Positions 5,715 through 26,284 of a DNA stretch of 26,322 bases are shown in pieces. Within the stretch, counting starts at the first letter, position 1. Each line of letters starts with the position of its first letter. The notes below the pieces were generated by a model that saw only the letters and a program-made list of their open reading frames with translations, was not told where the DNA came from and did not search any database. Source of the stretch: a virus. A program made the position numbers and the translations under genes. Location: positions 1-26,322 of the IMG/VR virus record IMGVR_UViG_3300035698_000330; one strand, written 5' to 3'.

Positions 5715-6683
5715 ATGGGAGCAGCATCAATAGTTTCAGGCGCAATGGCAATCAACGGCGCTATTCAAGGTAGGAAATCTGCCAAAGAGCAACGTGCAGC
5801 CATTCAGGAGCAGCGCGAGAACCACATGCGTTCTTACAATTTTTCGGAGCCATACATTCAGCGATCCTATGATCGGTCCGAAGACGCTCTGAACAGCTCG
5901 TTGGAACAAGGCACATACCAGGGCAAGACCTACGCCGATATGAACCCATATTCTCGCCAAGGTAATAATTTCATGGGTGACTCTGGCGCTGCCCAGGGCG
6001 CAAATGCCTTTGGGATAGCTAATGCATCCGCAGGTTTTGCGAATAACTACCAGGACCTATACGACAGGTCTAGCCAAGACCGAATGGGCGCAGCTCAAGA
6101 CTATGCATTAGGTACTTCTCAGCCTTTGATCGATGCCGCTATGCGTGATCCAAGCCGACAGCTAAATGAGCAGACCTTGCCTGGCATCAATCGCACCGCA
6201 AGCTCCCAGGGCAACATGAATTCATCCCGTGCGGGTATGGCAGACGCTGTTGCCCAACGTGGATTTCAAGATCGCTACGCCGACATGTCTGCCTCGATCA
6301 ATGACCAGCAGATGCAGCGTCACCTGGGCATGCAAGAGAATCAATTTAGAGATGCTATGTCAGCTAATCAGGGACTCTACCAAGGCTTTGGCGCGGGTAT
6401 GCAGGGTATCAATCAGGCAGGCAACATGATGGTTGGTGCAGGTAATAATTTCCGTAATTTCGAGCAAGGTGCCCTTAACGATAACCGAGATTACTTTAAC
6501 CGCAATCGTGATTTTGCTCTTGATCAGAATATTAAATATCAGAAGGGAATATTGAACAACGCTGACTACGACTCGACGGCGATGGAAGCAGTTGAGAAGC
6601 CTAATACTATGATGAGTACTATTGGTGGATTCCAATCCGGCTATGGTATGGGCAATGACTTCACAAAGGCATTTAACTCATGA
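5715..6683 (+). CDS. Internal virion/DNA ejection protein (gp14-like)
   Basis: A 322-residue protein, likely packaged inside the capsid or tail and released into the host envelope with the DNA. Residues 1-20 form a small-residue hydrophobic segment (MGAASIVSGAMAINGAIQG), followed by a charged helix (RKSAKEQRAAIQEQRENH), as in T7 gp14-like proteins. The rest is rich in Gln, Asn, Ala, Met and Gly with long helical stretches (e.g. GMQENQFRDAMSANQGLYQG) and no enzyme motif. GAGG precedes the ATG. Its last four bases overlap the next start (ATGA). The three-gene run small/medium/very large is typical of podovirus ejection modules. Confidence 0.65.
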   Translation: MGAASIVSGAMAINGAIQGRKSAKEQRAAIQEQRENHMRSYNFSEPYIQRSYDRSEDALNSSLEQGTYQGKTYADMNPYSRQGNNFMGDSGAAQGANAFGIANASAGFANNYQDLYDRSSQDRMGAAQDYALGTSQPLIDAAMRDPSRQLNEQTLPGINRTASSQGNMNSSRAGMADAVAQRGFQDRYADMSASINDQQMQRHLGMQENQFRDAMSANQGLYQGFGAGMQGINQAGNMMVGAGNNFRNFEQGALNDNRDYFNRNRDFALDQNIKYQKGILNNADYDSTAMEAVEKPNTMMSTIGGFQSGYGMGNDFTKAFNS

Positions 6684-7798
6684 GCATGTTTTCACCCCCA
6701 GGCTATATTGACCCCTACGCGCAGTATGCGCTCCAGCAGCAGCGGAATAAGACTCGCAATAACGGACCTTATGTCCCGCCAAACTATGTCAACAAAGTTA
6801 ACCCCACTAACCCTATCCTCACAATGCCTGGCAGTTATGTCGATCCAAACGGCACAACGCATTGGCCTGCTCAGGGCGGTCCCCAGCCCGTTGTTACCGC
6901 TCCAGGCGCACTTAGTGAGGAGCCTAAAGTAATTCCCGAAGAAGTCCCAGTAGCTGGAAACCCTATCCTTACTCAAAATAATGAAGAACCCAAAATGCCA
7001 GGTGTACTGGCAGAGCCAACACACACCATGCCTGACGGCACCCAAATGCCTGGCGCAGAGCATCCGAAAACTCCTGGTCTCCCTGGGTACGAGATGTCCT
7101 TCGGTGAGAAGATGGGCAGGTATGGAGGCAACATCATGTCTGCGGGTTCTAAAGGTGGAATGGCGCAGGTAGGCGCGATGGGTACAACGGTTGGTGAAAT
7201 AAAGAATATAGAGCGAGACCAGACTCGCATGATGCGTGAGGACGAATTAGCCAGAGAGCAGGCAAATGCAAGAAAAGTTCCGAATGCTGCCGCTCTAGAA
7301 AGGCAAGCCGAAATCCAGAACATGTACGACACTCAAGTGAAGTATGACCAAGCCATACAAGATTTCATAAAGTATGGGGACAGCGTAACTGGCCTTCTAG
7401 ATTCTACTGTACAGTCCGGAAAAGATAGCCAAGGAGTTTTCGGAGGTGATCCCGAGCGCGAAGCATTTAGATATCGCATCAAAGACATCATTATCAGCGA
7501 CACCCTATTGCAGACTGCGAAGACCTCGGGTGCCATATCCGACAAAGAAATGGCCCTGTTCAAATCTGGCGTTCCTAAAATGACTGACCAAGAAAGCGTA
7601 TGGATCGCATGGCTCACTAAACGATCAGCCTACCTCAAACAGATCAATCAAAGAATTTCGGATGGCGTTCAGATTTCGGCTACCGCTGAGATTGGTTTTA
7701 CAGGCTATGTACCTACTAGCCCGTCTGGCCAATCTGCAACGGCACCTTCCGCATTGACTCAAGCTCAAACAGACGCAATGACGAACAACATAAAATAA
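6680..7798 (+). CDS. Putative internal virion protein
   Basis: A 372-residue protein translated from an ATGA overlap with the upstream ejection gene. The first ~140 residues are Pro/Gly/Asn-rich and probably disordered (YVPPNYV, NPTNPILTMPG, PGVLAEP, TPGLPGYE). A central helical region follows (about 180-310; ERDQTRMMREDELAREQANARK, then a long helix with KYDQAIQDFIKYGDSV). The C-terminus is Ser/Thr/Ala-rich. No membrane segment or catalytic motif is seen. Position between gp14-like and very large polyvalent genes makes it a second ejection or internal protein. I do not recognise the family by name. Confidence 0.55.
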   Translation: MSMFSPPGYIDPYAQYALQQQRNKTRNNGPYVPPNYVNKVNPTNPILTMPGSYVDPNGTTHWPAQGGPQPVVTAPGALSEEPKVIPEEVPVAGNPILTQNNEEPKMPGVLAEPTHTMPDGTQMPGAEHPKTPGLPGYEMSFGEKMGRYGGNIMSAGSKGGMAQVGAMGTTVGEIKNIERDQTRMMREDELAREQANARKVPNAAALERQAEIQNMYDTQVKYDQAIQDFIKYGDSVTGLLDSTVQSGKDSQGVFGGDPEREAFRYRIKDIIISDTLLQTAKTSGAISDKEMALFKSGVPKMTDQESVWIAWLTKRSAYLKQINQRISDGVQISATAEIGFTGYVPTSPSGQSATAPSALTQAQTDAMTNNIK

Positions 7799-7815: not shown

Positions 7816-10800
7816 ATGCCTGCACAATACACTTTAGATGAGATTAAGGCAGCGGCACAGAATGCCTTTAAGAAAGGCAGCTACGAAGAAGCGCAGACGC
7901 TTGATGACCTTTACAAATCCCAGTGGACCGCACAGCAGCCCCAGCAGCAGCCACAGCAACCCGTTACCCCGATGGCTGCCTACCAGGCAAAAGTTGCATC
8001 GGACAAGGCTGACACCAAAGACGGTGCGCTAGGCTACTCAGTTGACCAGGCGCAAAAAATGCTAGGCAAGGGCATTGAAGCCGGTGGCCAGGTCTTTGGC
8101 TCCGATGCGTTGACTCAATATGGCGCTCAAGTAGTTGAACAGCAGGATAAAGATATAGCTGCTGGAGGCTATCAGCCTACCTACAACAAGAGCCTGAGAG
8201 AGACCTACAACGAAGATGGTCTAGGGTCAGCAATTGGCTGGGCGGCAGAGAAAACAGCGGAGAACGCAGCTTCAGGTGGCGCAGCCTTAATTGGTAGTGC
8301 AGCCGCTGCGGTAACTGCTCCGTTTTCCATGCCTCTGGCTGCTCTTATTGGGGGTGTAACCACAGCTGGCGCAGTAGCAATGGGTGCAGGTGAGTCTGCG
8401 TTTGAGCAAGAAGAAAAAACGGGTGAGTATGACGCGAAATTGGCTCTTGGTGTAGGTGCTTTAATAGGCTTCCTTGACAAATTTGGTGCAGGTAAAGTAA
8501 TACCAAAAGACCGCCTGATGAAAATGACGGCAGAGCAAGTTAGCGAAGAATTGGCACAAAAAGGCTTTGCAGACGCGGCAGCAAGTGTTCTTAAAAAGAC
8601 TGGTATTGAGGCGGCTACTGAGACTGCCCAGGAGGGCCTCTCAATAGGTTCAGCCGCCATCAGAGGTGGCGATTACACTCCGCAGGAACTGGGTGACAGA
8701 GCCTTAGAAGCCGCCGTACTTGGTGGCACCACATCGGTAGCTGCACAGGGCGGCATAGGCACTATAGGAGCCGCTACTAATTTAGTCTCTGGCAGTAATA
8801 GCGGATCTCCAGCTGATCAACAAGCTGCGGCATCTTTCGCACAGCGTTTGGCTGAGATTTCAAAAGCAAATGGATATGACCTCACAGATATCGACAAAAT
8901 GTCATCCCAAGGAGCCCGTGAAACTGTAGACAAGGCTCACATCCAATACACTGAGCAACTGAAGCAGCTGTTCAAGGATTTGAAGTCTAGAGTAGCTGTA
9001 ACAGACCAAGACACCCTGTCTGAGGTCTCTGAAAAAATACTAGCAGCGTCAGCCTATCGAGAAGGCCGCAATAAAACAAAAAGCACCGTAGGCGCTCAAG
9101 AGATGGCAGCCCTCGAATCACTGGCAGGCGATACACGGGAAGGCCAGGATGCACTTATGGTACTGCGCCAGCTCAACCAACTTACCCAGCTGCACAACGA
9201 TGGGTACCAGGGCGGTGTGTCTAAAATTACAGACCAGTTCGCTCCTTTGGGTGGTGGAATTGGTTACGACAAGGGTGCTGTTGCAACAGAGCGCCTACTG
9301 CGCCCTCTAGTTTCTGGAAGCGCAGCCATATCTACTGGTGGTACTTCACTGCTTGCCCAAGCAGCCGTTCAGGGCACAGGGCGTATGATAGACAAGGTTA
9401 CCGGAAGGCGGTCAGTCGTTGACAGGTTTGTCAAAAAGAATCGTGGCCAGCCGGGAATGCCTGGGCCTACCGGACCAAGTCTACGAATGGAAAACATTGC
9501 GACACAAGAGGCAGCTGAACGCGAAGCCCAAGAAGCCCAAGCTCAACAAGAAGCACAGACCGCACAAGAAGCGCAGGACCAGGCCGACCTAAATCAGTAT
9601 GTCTATGATCAAGGCGGAGTACCGTCTGACCAGTCTCCAGTAGGGAAAATGTCGCAGGTCCTAGGTGTTGATGTAGAAACCATAATGGTGCTGACTGATG
9701 AAATAATTACACAGAATGATCAGCCGCAGATTGTCCAAGCAGCTCAAGCAGCCCAGGCTTCAGCTACAACTGGCGGCCAAATTACGGACATGAACCAGCT
9801 TATTTCTATCTTAAAGAAGCGTCTTAACCCAGACCCGCAGTATTGGATTGAGCGCGGTCGCGGAGCTGCACAACAAGGTGCCCAGGTCAAGCTCACTCGT
9901 CAGGAAGAAAACTACCAGCGTGGCATAGAGAACAATCGTAAGGCCGCAGCCGCAATTACCGATGAGCTAAATGCAGACACCAAAGTTGCTAAGGTGGACA
10001 AGGCTCTTTTACTTAAGGCTCTCCAAGACCTTCAGTTAGACTTAGGTATAAACCCGGTTGCTACCCTCGAAAGCATGTATGCACGGCTCCAAGAGAAAAA
10101 CGTCGATGCAGCCGCTATCGATCAGTACCTTGGTCCGTACATGGAGCGAGTCGTTCAGCAGCAGGAGTCTAAGCAGCAGGTTCTTTCTGCCCAGGACGAA
10201 GTCCAGGACCTAAGTGAGCCTATGGATTCGCGTGGTCTGGCTGCTCCTGTTTTAGAGGAGACTGCAGAGCAGCGTAAGCAAAGAGCCGAAGAGCAAGGGT
10301 ATGACACTTCGACTGTCTACTACCACGGAACAGCCGCGGACTTTGACTCGTTCTCAAAAGGTGAGCTTGGGCGTGTTACTGAGGCTCGCTCCGCAAAACA
10401 AGCGTTTTTCTTTAGTGACAGCTCCCGCACAGCACAAAGTTACGCGCATAACACTGCGGTAAACATGCCTGTATTGGAAATAATTAAAGATGCTAATGCT
10501 GCCGAAAGACAGGGTGACTTTGATAAGTATGACGCCTTACTGGGAGAGGCAGAGGCACTTGAAGCCAGCCTAAACGCCGAGCGCCGCAACGGTCAGAATA
10601 TAATCCCAGTCTATCTCCCTAACGATGATTCACTTAGAATTAAAAACATGAGAGGGAGGTCTTTTGACGACTTTGGAGTGTCCGATGAAATTTCTGAGGA
10701 GCTGAAATCGGCCAAAAGAGATGGTCTAAAAGGAGTCAAGTTTTTAAACTTTAATGACTCTGCTGGCCTAGCTGATGACGCTTCTACTCATGTAGCTATT

Positions 10801-11988
10801 TTTGAGCCTTCAAACATACGCTCAGTCAACGCCCAGTTCGACCCTGACAAGACAGAGTCCGCGCAGCTAACTGACTCTCGCGCTTTAGGTGTCCCAGCAT
10901 TAGAAAGGGACAGCCAACAACTGGACCTCCCATTCGGGAAGCCCGATGTAATCCCCAAGATGGCTAAACCCACAGTGGTTCAAGTTAAGAATCACATGGA
11001 CAAGGCTCAGGAGATTCTCGAAGTAGCCATCGGTAAGCCTGGCAGTAAGTTTGAAAAAGGTGTCAGTACCGAAGCCGACATTATTCAGATCGCCGAAGTC
11101 CTAAATATATTTCCTAGGATATTTGATAATCGAGGAGACTATCAGGCGGCCTCTGGAAAATCTCAAAATGACACAAGTATTGGTAACTTTTTGGACTACG
11201 GAGATTCCAAGGGTGAAGCACGAGTTCTTGCTGCAAACGTCATAGAACAAGGGAAACCTATTGGTAACCTGAACTTTCTTATTACTATGATCCACGAAAT
11301 TATTGGTCATGGTCTTGAGAGTAGGGACTACCGTAACGCTAAGGCAGACTCTTACTCAATGTCTAATTTTCATCCACAAAGTAGTGGTTATCAGCATGCT
11401 AATAGTGGAAGCCTCCGTGGTGTAATTGCTCAGACATTAGGTATCGCACTTGACAGGGGCGGCTCTAGTAAACAGGAAATAGAAAGCGCCCGTAAGATCC
11501 GCGCCGAAATTGAAGCTATCCAAGATGAGATTGAAGTTTCCTTTGAGAATGCTCCTGAGTTAGGCACAACATTTTTGCGGGACTCACCTATCAAATGGGA
11601 AAAAGAGTTGATCGCTAAGATGGAGAAGGGAGGTGAATTTAGAAAAAGCATTGAAAGGCAGGTTAAAATAAAGCGTAAGATTTACCAAGACCACTTTGAT
11701 TCCTCCACAGATTATACTGAGTACAAGCGTAACAACGCTGAGTTTTCCGTAGACCCTGTCATCCTATATGTAATGAATCCAACCTTGATGAAAAAGGTAG
11801 CCCCAGAAACTGCAAAGTTAATCCGAGGCCACTTTAATACATCTAAAATCCCAGTCTCTTTCCACGCCAACCCTATAGCAACTATCCTGGCCATAATCAT
11901 GTCGGGCATTGCTGCTATGGATGATGAAGAAGAAGAGAAAAATAACCCTGGGGCTCTTACCCCAGAACCTGGGGCACTCACCGCATAG
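7816..11988 (+). CDS. Polyvalent internal protein: ART and HExxxH zincin-like domains
   Basis: 1390 residues. Residues 1-60 are Gln/Pro-rich. Residues ~150-230 hold Gly/Ala hydrophobic stretches (GGAALIGSAAAAVTAPF, LALGVGALIGFLDKFG) that could insert in a membrane. Residues ~560-600 are an Ala/Gln/Glu coiled coil. At ~835-1005 an ADP-ribosyltransferase-like domain is suggested by VYYHGTAADFDSF (His837), AFFFSDSSRTAQSYA and HVAIFEPSNIRSV, as in ART domains of phage polyvalent proteins. At ~1025-1350, MIHEIIGHGLES (His1160, Glu1161, His1165) and AEFSVDPVILYVMNP (Glu1309) suggest a zincin-like metallopeptidase; HExxxH spacing is known from M49 peptidases. It follows two ejection-protein genes, so virion delivery is likely but inferred. 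The upstream ribosome binding site is weak. Confidence 0.65.
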   Translation: MPAQYTLDEIKAAAQNAFKKGSYEEAQTLDDLYKSQWTAQQPQQQPQQPVTPMAAYQAKVASDKADTKDGALGYSVDQAQKMLGKGIEAGGQVFGSDALTQYGAQVVEQQDKDIAAGGYQPTYNKSLRETYNEDGLGSAIGWAAEKTAENAASGGAALIGSAAAAVTAPFSMPLAALIGGVTTAGAVAMGAGESAFEQEEKTGEYDAKLALGVGALIGFLDKFGAGKVIPKDRLMKMTAEQVSEELAQKGFADAAASVLKKTGIEAATETAQEGLSIGSAAIRGGDYTPQELGDRALEAAVLGGTTSVAAQGGIGTIGAATNLVSGSNSGSPADQQAAASFAQRLAEISKANGYDLTDIDKMSSQGARETVDKAHIQYTEQLKQLFKDLKSRVAVTDQDTLSEVSEKILAASAYREGRNKTKSTVGAQEMAALESLAGDTREGQDALMVLRQLNQLTQLHNDGYQGGVSKITDQFAPLGGGIGYDKGAVATERLLRPLVSGSAAISTGGTSLLAQAAVQGTGRMIDKVTGRRSVVDRFVKKNRGQPGMPGPTGPSLRMENIATQEAAEREAQEAQAQQEAQTAQEAQDQADLNQYVYDQGGVPSDQSPVGKMSQVLGVDVETIMVLTDEIITQNDQPQIVQAAQAAQASATTGGQITDMNQLISILKKRLNPDPQYWIERGRGAAQQGAQVKLTRQEENYQRGIENNRKAAAAITDELNADTKVAKVDKALLLKALQDLQLDLGINPVATLESMYARLQEKNVDAAAIDQYLGPYMERVVQQQESKQQVLSAQDEVQDLSEPMDSRGLAAPVLEETAEQRKQRAEEQGYDTSTVYYHGTAADFDSFSKGELGRVTEARSAKQAFFFSDSSRTAQSYAHNTAVNMPVLEIIKDANAAERQGDFDKYDALLGEAEALEASLNAERRNGQNIIPVYLPNDDSLRIKNMRGRSFDDFGVSDEISEELKSAKRDGLKGVKFLNFNDSAGLADDASTHVAIFEPSNIRSVNAQFDPDKTESAQLTDSRALGVPALERDSQQLDLPFGKPDVIPKMAKPTVVQVKNHMDKAQEILEVAIGKPGSKFEKGVSTEADIIQIAEVLNIFPRIFDNRGDYQAASGKSQNDTSIGNFLDYGDSKGEARVLAANVIEQGKPIGNLNFLITMIHEIIGHGLESRDYRNAKADSYSMSNFHPQSSGYQHANSGSLRGVIAQTLGIALDRGGSSKQEIESARKIRAEIEAIQDEIEVSFENAPELGTTFLRDSPIKWEKELIAKMEKGGEFRKSIERQVKIKRKIYQDHFDSSTDYTEYKRNNAEFSVDPVILYVMNPTLMKKVAPETAKLIRGHFNTSKIPVSFHANPIATILAIIMSGIAAMDDEEEEKNNPGALTPEPGALTA

Positions 11989-12345: not shown

Positions 12346-12724
12346 ACCTAAGGTGAATGGTGGGAGGCCCATCGGTGTAAGTGACGGCCATACTAAAGAA
12401 TCAATCGCTCCTATCCAGGCTAAGGCCAAGATAGATGCAAAAAGGATAACTGAAATCATGTCAGAGAAATACGATATTGAAGACGAGTACCAAAAGGAAG
12501 CTTTGTTCACCGCAGTCGAAGTAATGCGCCTGGTTGGCGAGACTCGAGAGCGTCTAGCAGCCGCTCGTCTGGTTTTAGACTTCACCAAGTCAAAGCCAGC
12601 AGCAAAATCAGATGTGTCAATTCATGCGGCTGAAGATTTCCTGGCCTCTTTACTGATCGAGGATGAGACTAGTGATGAGCAAAATGAAACAATTGAAACA
12701 GATACGGAAACGCCTACTGACTGA
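12203..12724 (+). CDS. terS: Terminase small subunit
   Basis: A 173-residue protein that should recognise phage DNA and load the large terminase. I chose the ATG at 12203 because a GAGAG site lies just upstream; the frame is open further upstream (12122), and an internal ATG at 12299 is possible but lacks a site. The N-terminus is strongly basic (PPRKQRKKAPPKPK). Then come METPEGRELRRQWSNK and GRPIGVSDG, followed by helices (KIDAKRITEIMSEKYD, EDEYQKEALFTAVEVMRLVGETRERLAAARLVLDF), a layout typical of small terminases. The tail is acidic. The call rests mainly on its place overlapping the large terminase. Confidence 0.65.
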   Translation: METPPRKQRKKAPPKPKVCPQKAPKRHYFSTLMETPEGRELRRQWSNKPKVNGGRPIGVSDGHTKESIAPIQAKAKIDAKRITEIMSEKYDIEDEYQKEALFTAVEVMRLVGETRERLAAARLVLDFTKSKPAAKSDVSIHAAEDFLASLLIEDETSDEQNETIETDTETPTD

Positions 12725-14255
12725 GTTTGGGTTCTATTCCAAAGCTTCGCTAAAGATCAGAACCAAGGCGGGAGACATCGCTCCGTTAAAACTTAACTCA
12801 GCACAGAAAATCTTAGACAAAGCCGTCACTGATCAATTAGCAGCCGAAGGCAAAGTCAGAATAATAATCTTAAAGGCTCGGCAGCAAGGTTTAAGCACCT
12901 ACACTGGTGGCTATCTATACTTTTCAGTAAGCCAACGCGCAGCCAGTAAAGCTATGGTTATTACGCATCATGCTGACAGTACCAGGGCACTGTTTGACAT
13001 GACTAAACGATTTCATGAGCATTGCCCTGATATCTTAAAACCACACACTAAATACTCAAGCAGAAGGGAAATGAATTTTGATGTTCTTGACAGTAGTTTT
13101 GTCGTTGCAACGGCTGGCGGAGAATCTATCGGTCGCGGCGAAACACTTACGCATGTACATGCCTCCGAGCTGGCATTCTGGCAAAAAAGTACCGCTCTCG
13201 ACAACTGGAACGGACTCACCCAGGCAGTCCCAAATACACCTGGTACAGCTATTTTTATTGAAAGTACGGCAAACGGCATTACCGGAATCTTTCATGATCT
13301 CTGGGCAGGCGCTGTTGACGGCACTAATGGCTATGTTCCAGTTTTCATCCCTTGGTTTGTCGATATTGATTATCGTGAACCTGCAACATCCGATTTTCTA
13401 AGAACGCCTGACGAAATTGATTTAGCCGGACAGTATGACCTAGACAATGAGCAGCTTATGTTCCGTAGAAAAAAGATAGCGCAGAACGGTCTTGACCTTT
13501 TCAACCAGGAATATCCATCGTCACCAGAGTTAGCCTTCAGAAACACAGGCCGTCCCGTGTTCAACCCTGAGCAGCTCGTAAACGTCCTTAGCGGCACAAG
13601 AGAACTCGAGCAGAGATTAGCCTGGGAAGATTCAGAGTGGCGCGACAATGCCCGTGGTGAACTTATGACCTGGCGTAAACATGTGCCTGGCGAAAGCTAC
13701 TGCATCGGAGCCGACCCATCTATGGGACTGGTCAACGGCGGTGACTACAGTGTCGCTCAGGTGCTGGACTCTAAGAAACGACAAGTTGCTACTTTTCGAG
13801 CCCATGTCCACCCGGATTACTTTGCTGAGATTCTCTTTGCACTAGGTACTTATTACAACGAAGCCCTCGTATGCGTAGAAAATAATTCTCACGGAATACT
13901 CACCTGTACTCGGCTAGGGAAAGACATGGCCTATCCGAACTTTTATACCGAGGTCCAGGTAGACAAGCTGACGGACCGCGAAACGATCAAGCTAGGCTTT
14001 ACGACAACATCGAAGACCAAGCCTTTGATCATTGATCAGCTCAGGGCAGAAATGCGTGATGGCAACATCGAGCTGAATGACAAAGTCACGGTAAGGGAGA
14101 TGATGAGTTATATCGTCACCGAAAGCGGTGCTATGCAGGCAGAGTCTGGCTGTTTTGATGACTGTGTCATGGCGTTGGCCTTAGCAAATCATGTTCACCA
14201 GGGTGCCTGGGAACCAATCGAATCGACTGACAATTACTATATTGAGATGGTATAA
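12675..14255 (+). CDS. terL: Terminase large subunit
   Basis: The packaging motor and nuclease, 526 residues from this start (an ATG four codons earlier, 12663, is also possible; GAGG sits right before it and is better spaced for 12675). The ATPase part shows a Walker A variant KARQQGLST (residues 67-75) and a Walker B-like VHASELAFW with Glu165, where Ser replaces the usual Asp. A likely coupling region, ESTANG, follows. The RNase H-like nuclease part shows Asp347 (IGADPSMG), Glu402 (VCVENNSHG) and Asp495/Asp496 (CFDDCVMALA). Length is usual. The start overlaps the small subunit and the stop is one base from the portal start. Confidence 0.92.
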   Translation: MSKMKQLKQIRKRLLTEFGFYSKASLKIRTKAGDIAPLKLNSAQKILDKAVTDQLAAEGKVRIIILKARQQGLSTYTGGYLYFSVSQRAASKAMVITHHADSTRALFDMTKRFHEHCPDILKPHTKYSSRREMNFDVLDSSFVVATAGGESIGRGETLTHVHASELAFWQKSTALDNWNGLTQAVPNTPGTAIFIESTANGITGIFHDLWAGAVDGTNGYVPVFIPWFVDIDYREPATSDFLRTPDEIDLAGQYDLDNEQLMFRRKKIAQNGLDLFNQEYPSSPELAFRNTGRPVFNPEQLVNVLSGTRELEQRLAWEDSEWRDNARGELMTWRKHVPGESYCIGADPSMGLVNGGDYSVAQVLDSKKRQVATFRAHVHPDYFAEILFALGTYYNEALVCVENNSHGILTCTRLGKDMAYPNFYTEVQVDKLTDRETIKLGFTTTSKTKPLIIDQLRAEMRDGNIELNDKVTVREMMSYIVTESGAMQAESGCFDDCVMALALANHVHQGAWEPIESTDNYYIEMV

Positions 14256-14256
14256 A

Positions 14257-16284
14257 ATGACTAAAAAAGACTATAAGAAGCTCGATGATGAGAACATCGT
14301 CACCCTGCTCGACGATTGCATAGGCAGGTCAGTCGGCTACTCGAATTCTGAGTTGTCGGTTGAGCGCAGCAAAGTCATTGACTATTATAACGGTACACTG
14401 CCACGCCCAATGCATGATGGCAATTCTAAGTATGTCTCGCTTGATGTCTATGACGCAGTCGAGAGCCTTCGCGCTGCCCTGTTAGAAACTTTTAGTTCAG
14501 GTAATCAGAACGTAAAGTTTGCCCCACAGAATGGCGAAGACGTTGAGATGTCGCAGGTTTGTACCCAATATACTGACTATGTCATGCACCGCCAGAACGA
14601 CCTCTACAGCATAATGTCCGGTGCTATATTTGACGGATTGGTAGCCCGGGTAGGCGTAGTCAAAGTCTTCTGGCATGAGTCTATGGAATATGACTACGAG
14701 GAGTTTGAGGACCTTACAGAAGATGAGCTTGATTTTCTTTTGGCGCAAGACGGCGTTGACCTGGTCGAAGATGATGAGGATGACCTTGGGCTACACACAG
14801 GCACTATCAGTATCGAGGTAGACACTAGCCAGGTGGTCATAGAGAACATAGCCCCCGAAGAGTTTCTAATTGAAGCCCAGGCTAAGAGTTTAGACGATGT
14901 CGGTTTCTGCGCTCACCGCACAAAGAAGACACTCAGTGAGCTGCGACAGCTAGGCTACGACGAAGACAAGATAGAGAAGATTGGTGAGCATAACGATGTT
15001 GACATGGAAACTGATCCAGAGGTCATGGCTCGATTTGAAAATACAGGCAATGGCCGAGCGTTTTCTAGTGATGATTATCAGGACCAGGTCCGCACGGTCA
15101 TGGTCTATGAAGCCTACATCATGCTCGATGTTGAGGGCACAGGAGAGGCCGAGCTGTACCGTGTCGTTAAAGCTGGCAACCAGATGCTCGAGAAGTCTAA
15201 GGCAACCAGGAGACCATTCGTGGCCTTCTGTCCCCTGCCTATACCTCACGCCTTCTTTGGTACTAACTACAGCGCCAAAATAATCGCGACACAGAACGCC
15301 AGGACAGTATTAACTAGGTCAATTCTAGATCACGCGATGATTGCAAATAACCCGCGCTATATGGTTCTTAAAGGCTCCCTGACCAACCCAAAGGAGCTGA
15401 TCGAGTCACGAGTCGGCGGCATTGTAAACACTACTCGCCCGGACGCTGTTACACCCATGCTCCAGGCTCCGTTAAACCCGTTTGTATTCCAGACTATCCA
15501 GATGTTGGATGAGGACAAAGAGGACACCACTGGCGTATCTAGGATGTCTCAAGGCATCAACAAAGATGCGCTTTCTCACCAAAATTCGGCAGCGATGGTT
15601 GAGCAGTTAGCGACCATGTCTCAGCAGCGCCAGAAGATAATCGCCAGGAACTTCGCTAGTCAGTTTGTAAAGCCACTGTTTCAAGAAGTCTATCTACTGT
15701 GTGTTGAGAATGAGTCTGAAGAAAAGATCGTGGACCTGGCTGGTAAGTACATCGCCGTCAACCCTCGCGCTTGGAAAGATAAACGCGATGTGGTCATCGA
15801 GATGCACCTTGGCTATGGCGAACAGCAGAAGGAAGCTGAGAAGTATGTACAGCTACACGGCATGCTATCCACCGACCCTAACCTGGCCGCAATGTATGGA
15901 CCTGAAAATCAATACGAACTAGCCAAGAAGATTATGGTGATGTCTGGTATCAAAGATGTCGATTCGTATCTGACCAACCCTGCCGATCTGCCAGAGCCAC
16001 AGCCGGACCCAAGTGAAGAGTTACAAAAGCAAATGCTCCAGCAGCAAATGGAACTCCAAGAGCGGCAAACAGCCGTAGCAGAAATGAAGCTCCAGGTTGA
16101 GCAGCAGATCGCTCAGATGAAACATGATATTGAAATGGCCAAGCTAGAGAACCAGTTAGCTATTGCCAGCGATAACATGGATCACAAAGAAGATCAGTTA
16201 GATCACAAGAGAGTCATTGCAAATGCCGAACTGGCACTAGCAAGACAGGCTGAAGAGATAACTGCAATAGCAAGCCCGAACTAG
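14257..16284 (+). CDS. Portal protein
   Basis: A 675-residue portal, the dodecameric ring through which DNA enters and leaves. The start MTKKDYKKLDDENI lies one base after the terminase stop; the longer open frame upstream only reads terminase sequence. Recognisable stretches: SKVIDYYNG, YVSLDVYDAVESLRAALLETFSSG, APEEFLIEAQAKSLDD, GVSRMSQGINKDALSHQNSAAM and RQKIIARNFASQFVKPLF, a pattern of P22-like or 'head-to-tail connecting' portals of podoviruses. Residues ~585-670 are a long Gln/Glu/Lys coiled coil, fitting the barrel helix. An acidic insert (LVEDDEDDLG) lies near residue 170. A terminator follows directly. Confidence 0.88.
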   Translation: MTKKDYKKLDDENIVTLLDDCIGRSVGYSNSELSVERSKVIDYYNGTLPRPMHDGNSKYVSLDVYDAVESLRAALLETFSSGNQNVKFAPQNGEDVEMSQVCTQYTDYVMHRQNDLYSIMSGAIFDGLVARVGVVKVFWHESMEYDYEEFEDLTEDELDFLLAQDGVDLVEDDEDDLGLHTGTISIEVDTSQVVIENIAPEEFLIEAQAKSLDDVGFCAHRTKKTLSELRQLGYDEDKIEKIGEHNDVDMETDPEVMARFENTGNGRAFSSDDYQDQVRTVMVYEAYIMLDVEGTGEAELYRVVKAGNQMLEKSKATRRPFVAFCPLPIPHAFFGTNYSAKIIATQNARTVLTRSILDHAMIANNPRYMVLKGSLTNPKELIESRVGGIVNTTRPDAVTPMLQAPLNPFVFQTIQMLDEDKEDTTGVSRMSQGINKDALSHQNSAAMVEQLATMSQQRQKIIARNFASQFVKPLFQEVYLLCVENESEEKIVDLAGKYIAVNPRAWKDKRDVVIEMHLGYGEQQKEAEKYVQLHGMLSTDPNLAAMYGPENQYELAKKIMVMSGIKDVDSYLTNPADLPEPQPDPSEELQKQMLQQQMELQERQTAVAEMKLQVEQQIAQMKHDIEMAKLENQLAIASDNMDHKEDQLDHKRVIANAELALARQAEEITAIASPN

Positions 16285-17675: not shown

Positions 17676-18560
17676 ATGGCTACGTTGCAAACATATCAAG
17701 TGGTCGGGATGAGCGAGGACGTTTCCTCAACTATCGCCAATATCTCTCCAACCTCAACACCCTTCCAAGCAGCAATCAAAACAGAGAAAGTCCACGCTCG
17801 TACATTCGAGTGGATGGAAGATTCTGTACGCGCTGCGGGCGTGAATGCCCTCGTAGAAGGAGCAAATAGCTCAGACACAAGTGTAGGGCAGCCTACCCTC
17901 CGATCTAACACTACTCAGATCATTGGCGAGTCATTTAAGATCGCTGGTACAGTAGAGGCCGTTAAGAATCATGGCCGTGCGAAAGAGACAGCCTATGCTC
18001 TTGCTAAGACACTGAAAGCTATCAAGCTCGACGTTGAAAAGGCTATGGTCGGTATTGACCAGGCAGCCGTGGTTGGATCGGCAAGTGCAGCTCGGAAGAT
18101 GGCATCAGCCACTCAGATGATCTCTACTACGCTCGATGCGGGAAGCAATAGCACCGATGCTCTTACAGAAGCAAAATTATTAGCTTTGCATCAGACTACT
18201 TATACCAACGGTTCTGACCCATCAATTCTGATGGTAAAGCCTGCGGACGCTGGAATCATCTCTGGTTTCACTACTGCATCTTCTCGTACCCGCGACTTCG
18301 GTCAAAGCAAAACCCTGACCGCCGCTATAGAAGTACTCGTAACGAGTTTCGGAACTCTGCGCGTACTTATCAACCGTAATCAACTAAGTACCCACGCTCT
18401 GTTGATTGATCCGTCGATGTGGAAGCAGTGTCAATTGCGTCCGTTCACTCGCACATTGTTAGCGCGGAATGGCGATGCCGATCATCATCTCGTTCTCGGG
18501 GAAACGAGCTTAAAGCATTCTTCTTTCGCAAGTTGTGGAATGATCACCGGACTTTCTTGA
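17676..18560 (+). CDS. Major capsid protein (DUF5309/SU10-like)
   Basis: A 294-residue shell protein. The opening (MATLQTYQVVGMSEDVSSTI, ANISPTSTPFQAAI, FEWMEDSV), the middle (LALHQTTYTNGSDPSILMVKP) and the end (WKQCQLRPFTRTLLARNGDADHH then LVLGETSLKHSSFASCGMITGL) match my memory of the DUF5309 family, which includes the phage SU10 major capsid protein with an HK97-type fold. The length is usual. An AAAAGG site lies about 10 bp upstream. Scaffold precedes it, and a very strong terminator follows, consistent with high and separate expression. Confidence 0.88.
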   Translation: MATLQTYQVVGMSEDVSSTIANISPTSTPFQAAIKTEKVHARTFEWMEDSVRAAGVNALVEGANSSDTSVGQPTLRSNTTQIIGESFKIAGTVEAVKNHGRAKETAYALAKTLKAIKLDVEKAMVGIDQAAVVGSASAARKMASATQMISTTLDAGSNSTDALTEAKLLALHQTTYTNGSDPSILMVKPADAGIISGFTTASSRTRDFGQSKTLTAAIEVLVTSFGTLRVLINRNQLSTHALLIDPSMWKQCQLRPFTRTLLARNGDADHHLVLGETSLKHSSFASCGMITGLS

Positions 18561-18989: not shown

Positions 18990-19595
18990 ATGAACCTCGG
19001 TCAAATAAGAACTCACTTTAAGGCACTGCTCAACCGAAGCGACATCACCGATGCCCTTGCCAATACTTTTATTGACCAGGCTATCGCGAGGATTCAACGG
19101 AGCATCCGAATCCCAAGTATGGAGAAGACGCATACCTATACAATTACGGCCTCTACACCTTCGGTATTGCTACCCAATGATTTCATCGAAGGCATCGATC
19201 TTAGTTTCGCTAGTCATACCCTGGACCGTCTTCCTATGAGCGAAATGCTCAATCGAAAATCCACTTCGGAAATCGGCAATCCCCACTTCTTCGCCAGGGA
19301 GGGTGGGTCATTCTTAATCACCCCGGTACCCTCCTCCGGCAAGCTCATACTTAACTACTACGCACAGTTTGCCGCGATGACGGCAGACAGCGATGAAAAT
19401 AGCCTGGCAGCAGTCGGTAGCGACCTCCTCATTTATGCCGCGCTCACCTACGCCAGCGACTATTACCTGGACGAGCGCCAGGTACTCTTTGAACAGAAAT
19501 ACAATCAGTTCATGGTAGAGATCCAGGACCAGGCTTACGATGCCGAAATAACGGGTAGCCTCCAGGCTATACGCCCAGCATATCAATACCACTAA
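18990..19595 (+). CDS. Head-tail adaptor protein
   Basis: A 201-residue protein that likely binds under the portal and joins head and tail. The N-terminal helical part (MNLGQIRTHFKALLNRSDIT, then LANTFIDQAIARIQRSIRIP), the central YTITASTPSVLLPNDFIEGIDL, a beta stretch with FLITPVPSSGKLILNYYA, and the C-terminal helix LLIYAALTYASDYYLDERQVLF fit the adaptor family of P22 gp4/SU10-like podoviruses. The distance to the preceding stop is 3 bp, and the ribosome site is weak, so coupling is likely. Confidence 0.75.
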   Translation: MNLGQIRTHFKALLNRSDITDALANTFIDQAIARIQRSIRIPSMEKTHTYTITASTPSVLLPNDFIEGIDLSFASHTLDRLPMSEMLNRKSTSEIGNPHFFAREGGSFLITPVPSSGKLILNYYAQFAAMTADSDENSLAAVGSDLLIYAALTYASDYYLDERQVLFEQKYNQFMVEIQDQAYDAEITGSLQAIRPAYQYH

Positions 19596-26197: not shown

Positions 26198-26284
26198 TGG
26201 TGCCCGGGGTCGGACTTGAACCGACACGGTGTTGCCACCGAGGGATTTTAAGTCCCTTGCGTCTACCAATTTCGCCACCCGGGC
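26198..26284 (-). tRNA. tRNA-Leu (anticodon UAA)
   Basis: On the - strand an 87-nt class II tRNA folds fully: acceptor gcccggg/cccgggc, D stem gcg/cgc, anticodon stem aggga/tccct with loop CTTAAAA (anticodon UAA, reads UUA), long variable arm cggtg/caccg, T stem gtcgg/ccgac with loop TTCAAGT, discriminator A and an encoded CCA (26198-26200). The encoded CCA and the sequence are of gammaproteobacterial type. It may be a host gene at a prophage edge or a phage-borne tRNA. The facing frame on the + strand (26110-26322) is spurious. Confidence 0.95.

Follow-up and report, generated by a model that had tools for sequence, protein, structure and literature searches.

An ART-PolyVal domain is an exchangeable cassette in a putative ejection-type polyvalent protein of uncultured podoviruses with SU10-type structural genes

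In this work, we analyzed a 26,322-base IMG/VR virus record (IMGVR_UViG_3300035698_000330, here called the window) and, within it, an open reading frame (ORF) at 7816-11988 on the plus strand that encodes a 1390-residue protein (the carrier). All features described below lie on the same strand unless otherwise noted. We found that a domain assigned by sequence and model to the ART-PolyVal family of ADP-ribosyltransferases (ARTs) sits in this protein as an exchangeable cassette. Our favored reading, to which we give a probability of about two in three, is that this ART is one such cassette in an ejection-type polyvalent protein that is injected by a clade of uncultured podoviruses whose structural genes are of the SU10 type.

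Results

The initial annotation, made from the sequence alone, had proposed an ART-like domain inside the 1390-residue protein, and profile searches bear this out. Its three motifs, YYHGTAADFDSF (residues 835-846; 10318-10353), AFFFSDSSRTAQSYA (residues 863-877; 10402-10446), and HVAIFEPSNIRSV (residues 992-1004; 10789-10827), lie exactly where they had been placed. Residues 833-1005 match the Pfam family ART-PolyVal (PF18760) with an expect value (E) of 1.4e-10 and 42.5 bits when the whole protein is searched, and with E = 2.5e-12 and 48.2 bits when the segment is excised. Both scores exceed the curated cut-off of the family (31.2 bits), and as a sequence match this is far above chance.

The comparison of folds that the annotation had put forward as a check was also carried out. 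An AlphaFold2 model of the domain (residues 816-1014; 10261-10857), built from a 39-sequence alignment after two further collection scans, reached a predicted local distance difference test score (pLDDT) of 91.2 and a predicted template modeling score (pTM) of 0.84; an earlier model from an 11-sequence alignment (pLDDT 47) was discarded. With Foldseek, the top match in BFVD was an "ART-PolyVal-like domain-containing protein" (E = 4.7e-17; template modeling [TM] score, 0.75), and further ART-PolyVal entries were found there, several at E < 1e-3. Among PDB structures, ART folds made up 8 of the 9 top matches (diphtheria toxin CRM197, tankyrases, PARP4, PARP2, and a RES toxin complex). On sequence and model, then, both the ART fold and the ART-PolyVal identity of the domain are clear.

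Polyvalent ARTs are defined by an H-Y-D triad, with His in strand 1, Tyr in strand 2, and Asp in strand 5 (Iyer et al. 2017, PMC5512222). The strand 1 His (His837; 10324-10326) does not vary among the 49 ARTs collected from the loci. The position of the canonical Tyr, occupied in the window by Phe865 (10408-10410), holds a ring residue in 47/49 (Phe in 14, Tyr in 13, Trp in 11, and His in 9), and that of the strand 5 Asp, here Glu997 (10804-10806), is acidic in 34/49 (Asp in 24 and Glu in 10); the doubt that the annotation had voiced about the third catalytic residue was well placed. Read from its sequence, the window ART is H-F-E, a relaxed version of the published triad. It also carries an insertion of two helices behind the second strand (residues about 870-921; 10423-10578; helices at model residues 55-83 and 87-106), which is missing from the short ART subtype of one relative, L003. 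Third codon positions were the most divergent in all 10 of the pairs compared, and the ratio of nonsynonymous to synonymous divergence (dN/dS) to the relative L029 was ~0.05 (most other dS values being saturated); we conclude from this that the ART domain is under purifying selection and is maintained.

With this active site, the domain is probably active, albeit not certainly so. An alternative is that the ART fold has been kept while catalysis is weak or dead, the domain serving instead as a binding module comparable to the non-catalytic ART of ZAP/PARP13, whether for NAD, for a host protein, or for an ADP-ribosylated molecule. In line with this, Phe stands at the canonical Tyr position, the acidic position varies (H-W-N, H-W-K, and H-W-Q occur in relatives of the same subtype), and ZAP was the sole ART among the non-significant PDB profile matches. 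However, the retention of His837 and of the ring residue, together with purifying selection on the domain, makes this unlikely, and other ARTs can be active with a different aromatic residue at the Tyr stacking position.

Relatives were gathered by scanning the collection with the carrier, with its N- and C-terminal parts, and with the ART, and were then compared with the window gene by gene at the DNA level. The variable part of the carrier, which we refer to as the bay (codons 815-1034; 10258-10917), lies between a middle segment (M; residues 590-812; 9583-10251), which is conserved as far as the cassette, and a C-terminal region (C-region; residues 1045-1390; 10948-11985). In the nearest relatives, which are 93-99% identical directly upstream, the site is empty or holds an unrelated module of ~500 residues. 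L002 shows 93% identity to the window over codons 1-814; in the bay, where it has about 500 unrelated residues, nothing can be aligned, and from codon 1035 onward the identity is 77%. L004, which has no bay, is 100% identical to the window over codons 1-47 and 98.6% identical over codons 578-797; L002 and L004 are 99.5% identical 3' of the bay. The intervening carrier codons 48-577 (window 7957-9546) are represented in L004 (L004:2701-6177) by another allele, in which the hydrophobic N-terminal segment is wholly exchanged. A narrower replacement distinguishes L033 from L044. Identity between the two is 92-94% to the left of it and 88% to the right, and nothing but the ART core (about codons 812-973) has been swapped for another ART subtype; the edges RAEEQGxDTSxVYYHGT and IRSVNAQFDP are retained. 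ARTs with a nearly identical entry motif (AEEQGFDTxxVYYHG) also occur in giant proteins of ~2,500-2,900 residues on other contigs (L050-L065).

The window ART is 82%, 76%, and 73% identical to those of L029, L030, and L033, whereas the C-regions of the same relatives are 35%, 34%, and 31% identical to that of the window and their M regions 33-49%. Overall, phages holding a window-type ART at 73-82% identity have carriers that are 31-65% identical. Moreover, phages whose large terminase subunit (TerL) is 99% identical have no ART, the one at 92% has a different ART subtype, and those at 79-82% have the same subtype. It follows from these two contrasts that the ART moves independently: it is an exchangeable cassette in the carrier. 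Direct DNA repeats flanking the cassette, as a possible recombination site, were looked for and not found. Every sequence here comes from a metagenome contig, and no contig other than the window showed the exact window-type junction, as might be expected if the variable bay were an assembly chimera. This we regard as highly improbable, given that the same kinds of junction occur in contigs from separate samples (L030/L031, L033/L032, L039/L040, and L044/L045), that the sister carriers L003 and L007 have an ART at the same place with the same right-hand linker, and that the reading frame is open throughout.

So that the choice of query would not favor ARTs, bay contents were sampled by TerL. 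At least 574 of 599 candidate stretches encoded a TerL relative, and the best 80 of these (at least 574) were kept. The bay edge was visible in 36 carriers of this sample: 8 bays were empty, 6 or 7 held an ART (6 on profile evidence, with L147 added, and L125 left in doubt, by Pfam), 7 or 8 carriers lacked the C-region (one of the 8, L170, is a frame-broken fragment), and the remainder held other modules. By Pfam, DUF7178 is present in the bays of L013, L014, L038, L121, and L125, and RadC is present in that of L125. In L034 (3870-6188), methyltransferase-like and GNAT-like stretches (both below cut-off) and an ART stretch follow one another in a single carrier, and a Zeta-toxin-like module (PF06414; E = 1.4e-10) ends a carrier without a C-region (L158:7980-8951). 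The commonest bay content is a module of ~400 residues of no known family, which is also the most frequent neighbor of the ART and stands beside it in L029, L033, L035, L039, and L044 (e.g., L029:5667-6881). By eye, this module and that of L002 were suspected to be relatives of DUF7178; profile comparison gave no support for this.

The C-region, a zincin-like stretch absent from the initial annotation, contains HEIIGH (residues 1160-1165; 11293-11310), an HExxxH variant of the zincin motif. In an alignment of 19 relatives, no substitution is seen at His1160, Glu1161, the second His, His1186, or Glu1309; HExxxH is found in the window subgroup and HExxH in other, distant relatives. The HExxxH variant is on record for polyvalent zincins/MPTases (PMC5512222), and judging from this sequence pattern, the C-region is likely a zincin peptidase. 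Many polyvalent proteins have a zincin-like MPTase domain, although it is not obligatory in them. Some short carriers (L024:5300-7615, L133, L153, and L160) stop after the middle segment and have neither bay nor zincin, from which it appears that both are dispensable.

The conserved N-terminal part of the carrier (residues 1-552; 7816-9471), delimited by alignment, hydropathy, and DNA comparison, includes a hydrophobic, Ala/Gly-rich segment (residues 151-229), and residues 9-343 match PHROG 6958, "virion structural protein" (E = 7.4e-13). As the annotation had held, the carrier is a large protein of the late/virion block. Its gene lies between an ejection-type gene (5715-6683; PHROG 4287, "DNA ejection protein"; E = 4.4e-6) and the genes for TerL (12663-14255; PHROG 2; E = 9.6e-21) and an SU10-type portal (14191-16284; PF23899 SU10_portal; E = 1.9e-174), which is the context expected of phage polyvalent proteins, and it was found 5' of terL in all relative contigs with sufficient upstream DNA. 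The annotation had also placed two ejection-protein genes ahead of the carrier. The first of these stands, but the second gene of the block (6680-7798), which is syntenic in relatives, gave no PHROG match of its own, so that its putative ejection role derives from synteny. Together with the portal, an SU10-type major capsid protein (17676-18560; PF17236; E = 1.8e-68) and an SU10-type adaptor protein (18990-19595; PF24175; E = 1.2e-27) identify the structural module as SU10-type. The portal ORF as called overlaps terL (14191-14260), and relatives begin ~23 residues further in; by this comparison, the true start is probably about 23 residues inside the called ORF.

Nothing was found (at E <= 1e-5 for the carrier) among 50,697 named phage records, whether the query was the complete carrier, just the ART, or the ejection gene. 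Pseudomonas phage Bjorn gave the only trace of the carrier in a named phage, a weak match (E = 0.8) to a 1066-residue protein of its structural block annotated as "virion structural protein." Scans with the ART and the C-region of the contigs of prokaryote species genomes returned no relative, and therefore no host or prophage can be named. PADLOC identified no convincing defense family. A tRNA-Leu (taa) gene lies close to the window end (26198-26284, minus strand). The motif (G/P)(A/V/I)L(T/S/A) occurs in four copies in gene 6680-7798 (residues 45-110) and in two copies at the extreme C terminus of the carrier (11950-11985); none of 500 shuffles equaled the upstream gene in this respect, a figure that applies to a pattern picked after being seen. 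The motif is perhaps a docking or packaging signal.

Discussion

The carrier combines domains of unrelated putative activity in one polypeptide (an ART and a zincin-like region in the window and other modules in relatives), as polyvalent proteins do, and its PHROG 6958 match, the weak Bjorn match, and its position between the ejection-type gene and terL/portal suggest that it is present in the virion. We propose that the conserved N-terminal and middle parts would take the carrier into the capsid and then out via the tail, that the zincin-like C terminus would liberate the cargo (or itself) inside the host, and that the ART would then mono-ADP-ribosylate a host or defense target within the first minutes. 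Packaging and injection are suggested by analogy: five ejection proteins leave the head of SU10 (PMC9509320), and injection has been described as likely for polyvalent proteins (PMC5512222). Release of cargo by the zincin is modeled on the latter account, itself largely prediction, and ADP-ribosylation of a host or defense target would follow the example of published polyvalent and ejection proteins.

It could instead be that the ART acts late in the producing cell, or on the phage particle itself, and is not injected; the carrier gene does lie in a late structural block, and injection is an inference. We consider this quite unlikely, given that the carrier matches PHROG 6958 and adjoins an ejection-type gene, and given the published accounts of SU10 ejection proteins and polyvalent proteins. 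In addition, the existence of a near-identical phage without the cassette argues against a role in particle assembly; that closely matching phages differ in their bays is more in keeping with arms-race cargo.

Several results weigh against an injected, active ART of the kind that we favor. Each PDB match to an ART is individually weak (E of 0.1 or more; TM about 0.34), although the two-helix insertion probably depresses these scores. The catalytic Tyr is replaced by Phe, and the third residue is non-acidic in 15/49 relatives. The zincin-like region is matched by no Pfam or NCBIfam model, and a PDB profile search returned metalloproteinases only at non-significant values (E = 0.14 and above), so that the label "zincin" reflects the conserved pattern alone. 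Finally, the clade has no cultured relative, the TerL of the closest isolate being 37% identical.

Among the closest known systems are the ART-PolyVal/Tox-ART-HYD2 domains of polyvalent proteins (PMC5512222), with which the window shares a PF18760 match above cut-off, the fold, the strand 1 His, and a zincin-like carrier in a phage late block. The window differs in having Phe for Tyr, Glu for Asp, the two-helix insertion, and its own conserved virion-type N terminus. Similarly, the N4-like virion RNA polymerase of Roseovarius Plymouth podovirus 1 (PMC5512222) unites an ART and a zincin on a giant virion-type podovirus protein, but no RNA polymerase module was detected in the window, and its structural genes are SU10-type rather than N4-like. 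As regards SU10 itself, whose head carries the ejection proteins gp20-gp24 (PMC9509320), the window has a portal, capsid, and adaptor of that type, whereas its carrier matches no named phage protein at E <= 1e-5. The annotation had likened the domain to T4 Alt. The likeness is confined to the proposed role (an injected ART with an early host target): Alt belongs to the R-S-E clade and polyvalent ARTs to the H-Y-D (Tox-ART-HYD2) clade (PMC5512222), and Alt has no zincin and is not polyvalent. Membership with Alt was considered and rejected, PF18760 being the only ART family found in Pfam at E <= 1 and the active site being of the His type. The nearest functional parallel to bay turnover is provided by the T4 internal proteins Ip1-Ip3, which block different GmrSD enzymes and which are injected and variable with only a packaging part in common (PMC12373910). 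Those, however, are small separate genes with an N-terminal signal, whereas in the window the variable part is inside one large protein with conserved parts on either side.

The domain had initially been put forward as a candidate for an undescribed effector. This is not supported, as the ART-PolyVal family, its occurrence joined to zincin peptidases in polyvalent proteins of phages, and its likely injection have already been described (Iyer et al. 2017, PMC5512222); the window ART belongs to a described family in a described protein class and is not a new kind of effector. What is new is the clade, the H-F-E subtype with its helical insertion, and base-level evidence of one ejection-type site being emptied, refilled, and core-swapped. 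In a limited search of the open literature, we came across no paper on this. The clade is abundant, as judged from the at least 574 related contigs in the TerL scan, although its closest isolate is so distant. One tentative possibility, to which we give somewhat less than an even chance, is that the carrier serves as a purpose-built delivery chassis whose bay accepts true effectors: an abundant clade would hold both ends of one ejection protein constant and swap complete effectors, or just the ART core between the conserved edges, against host defenses, in the way that T4-like phages vary their internal proteins, and the zincin would release each cargo.

Polyvalent proteins were defined earlier by domain shuffling across distant phages; here, near-identical phages form natural matched sets. 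Given that the ART is present, absent, or replaced among them, the effect of a single injected domain could be tested between carriers that differ only there, and the ART subtypes with swapped cores may offer a route to what decides the target.

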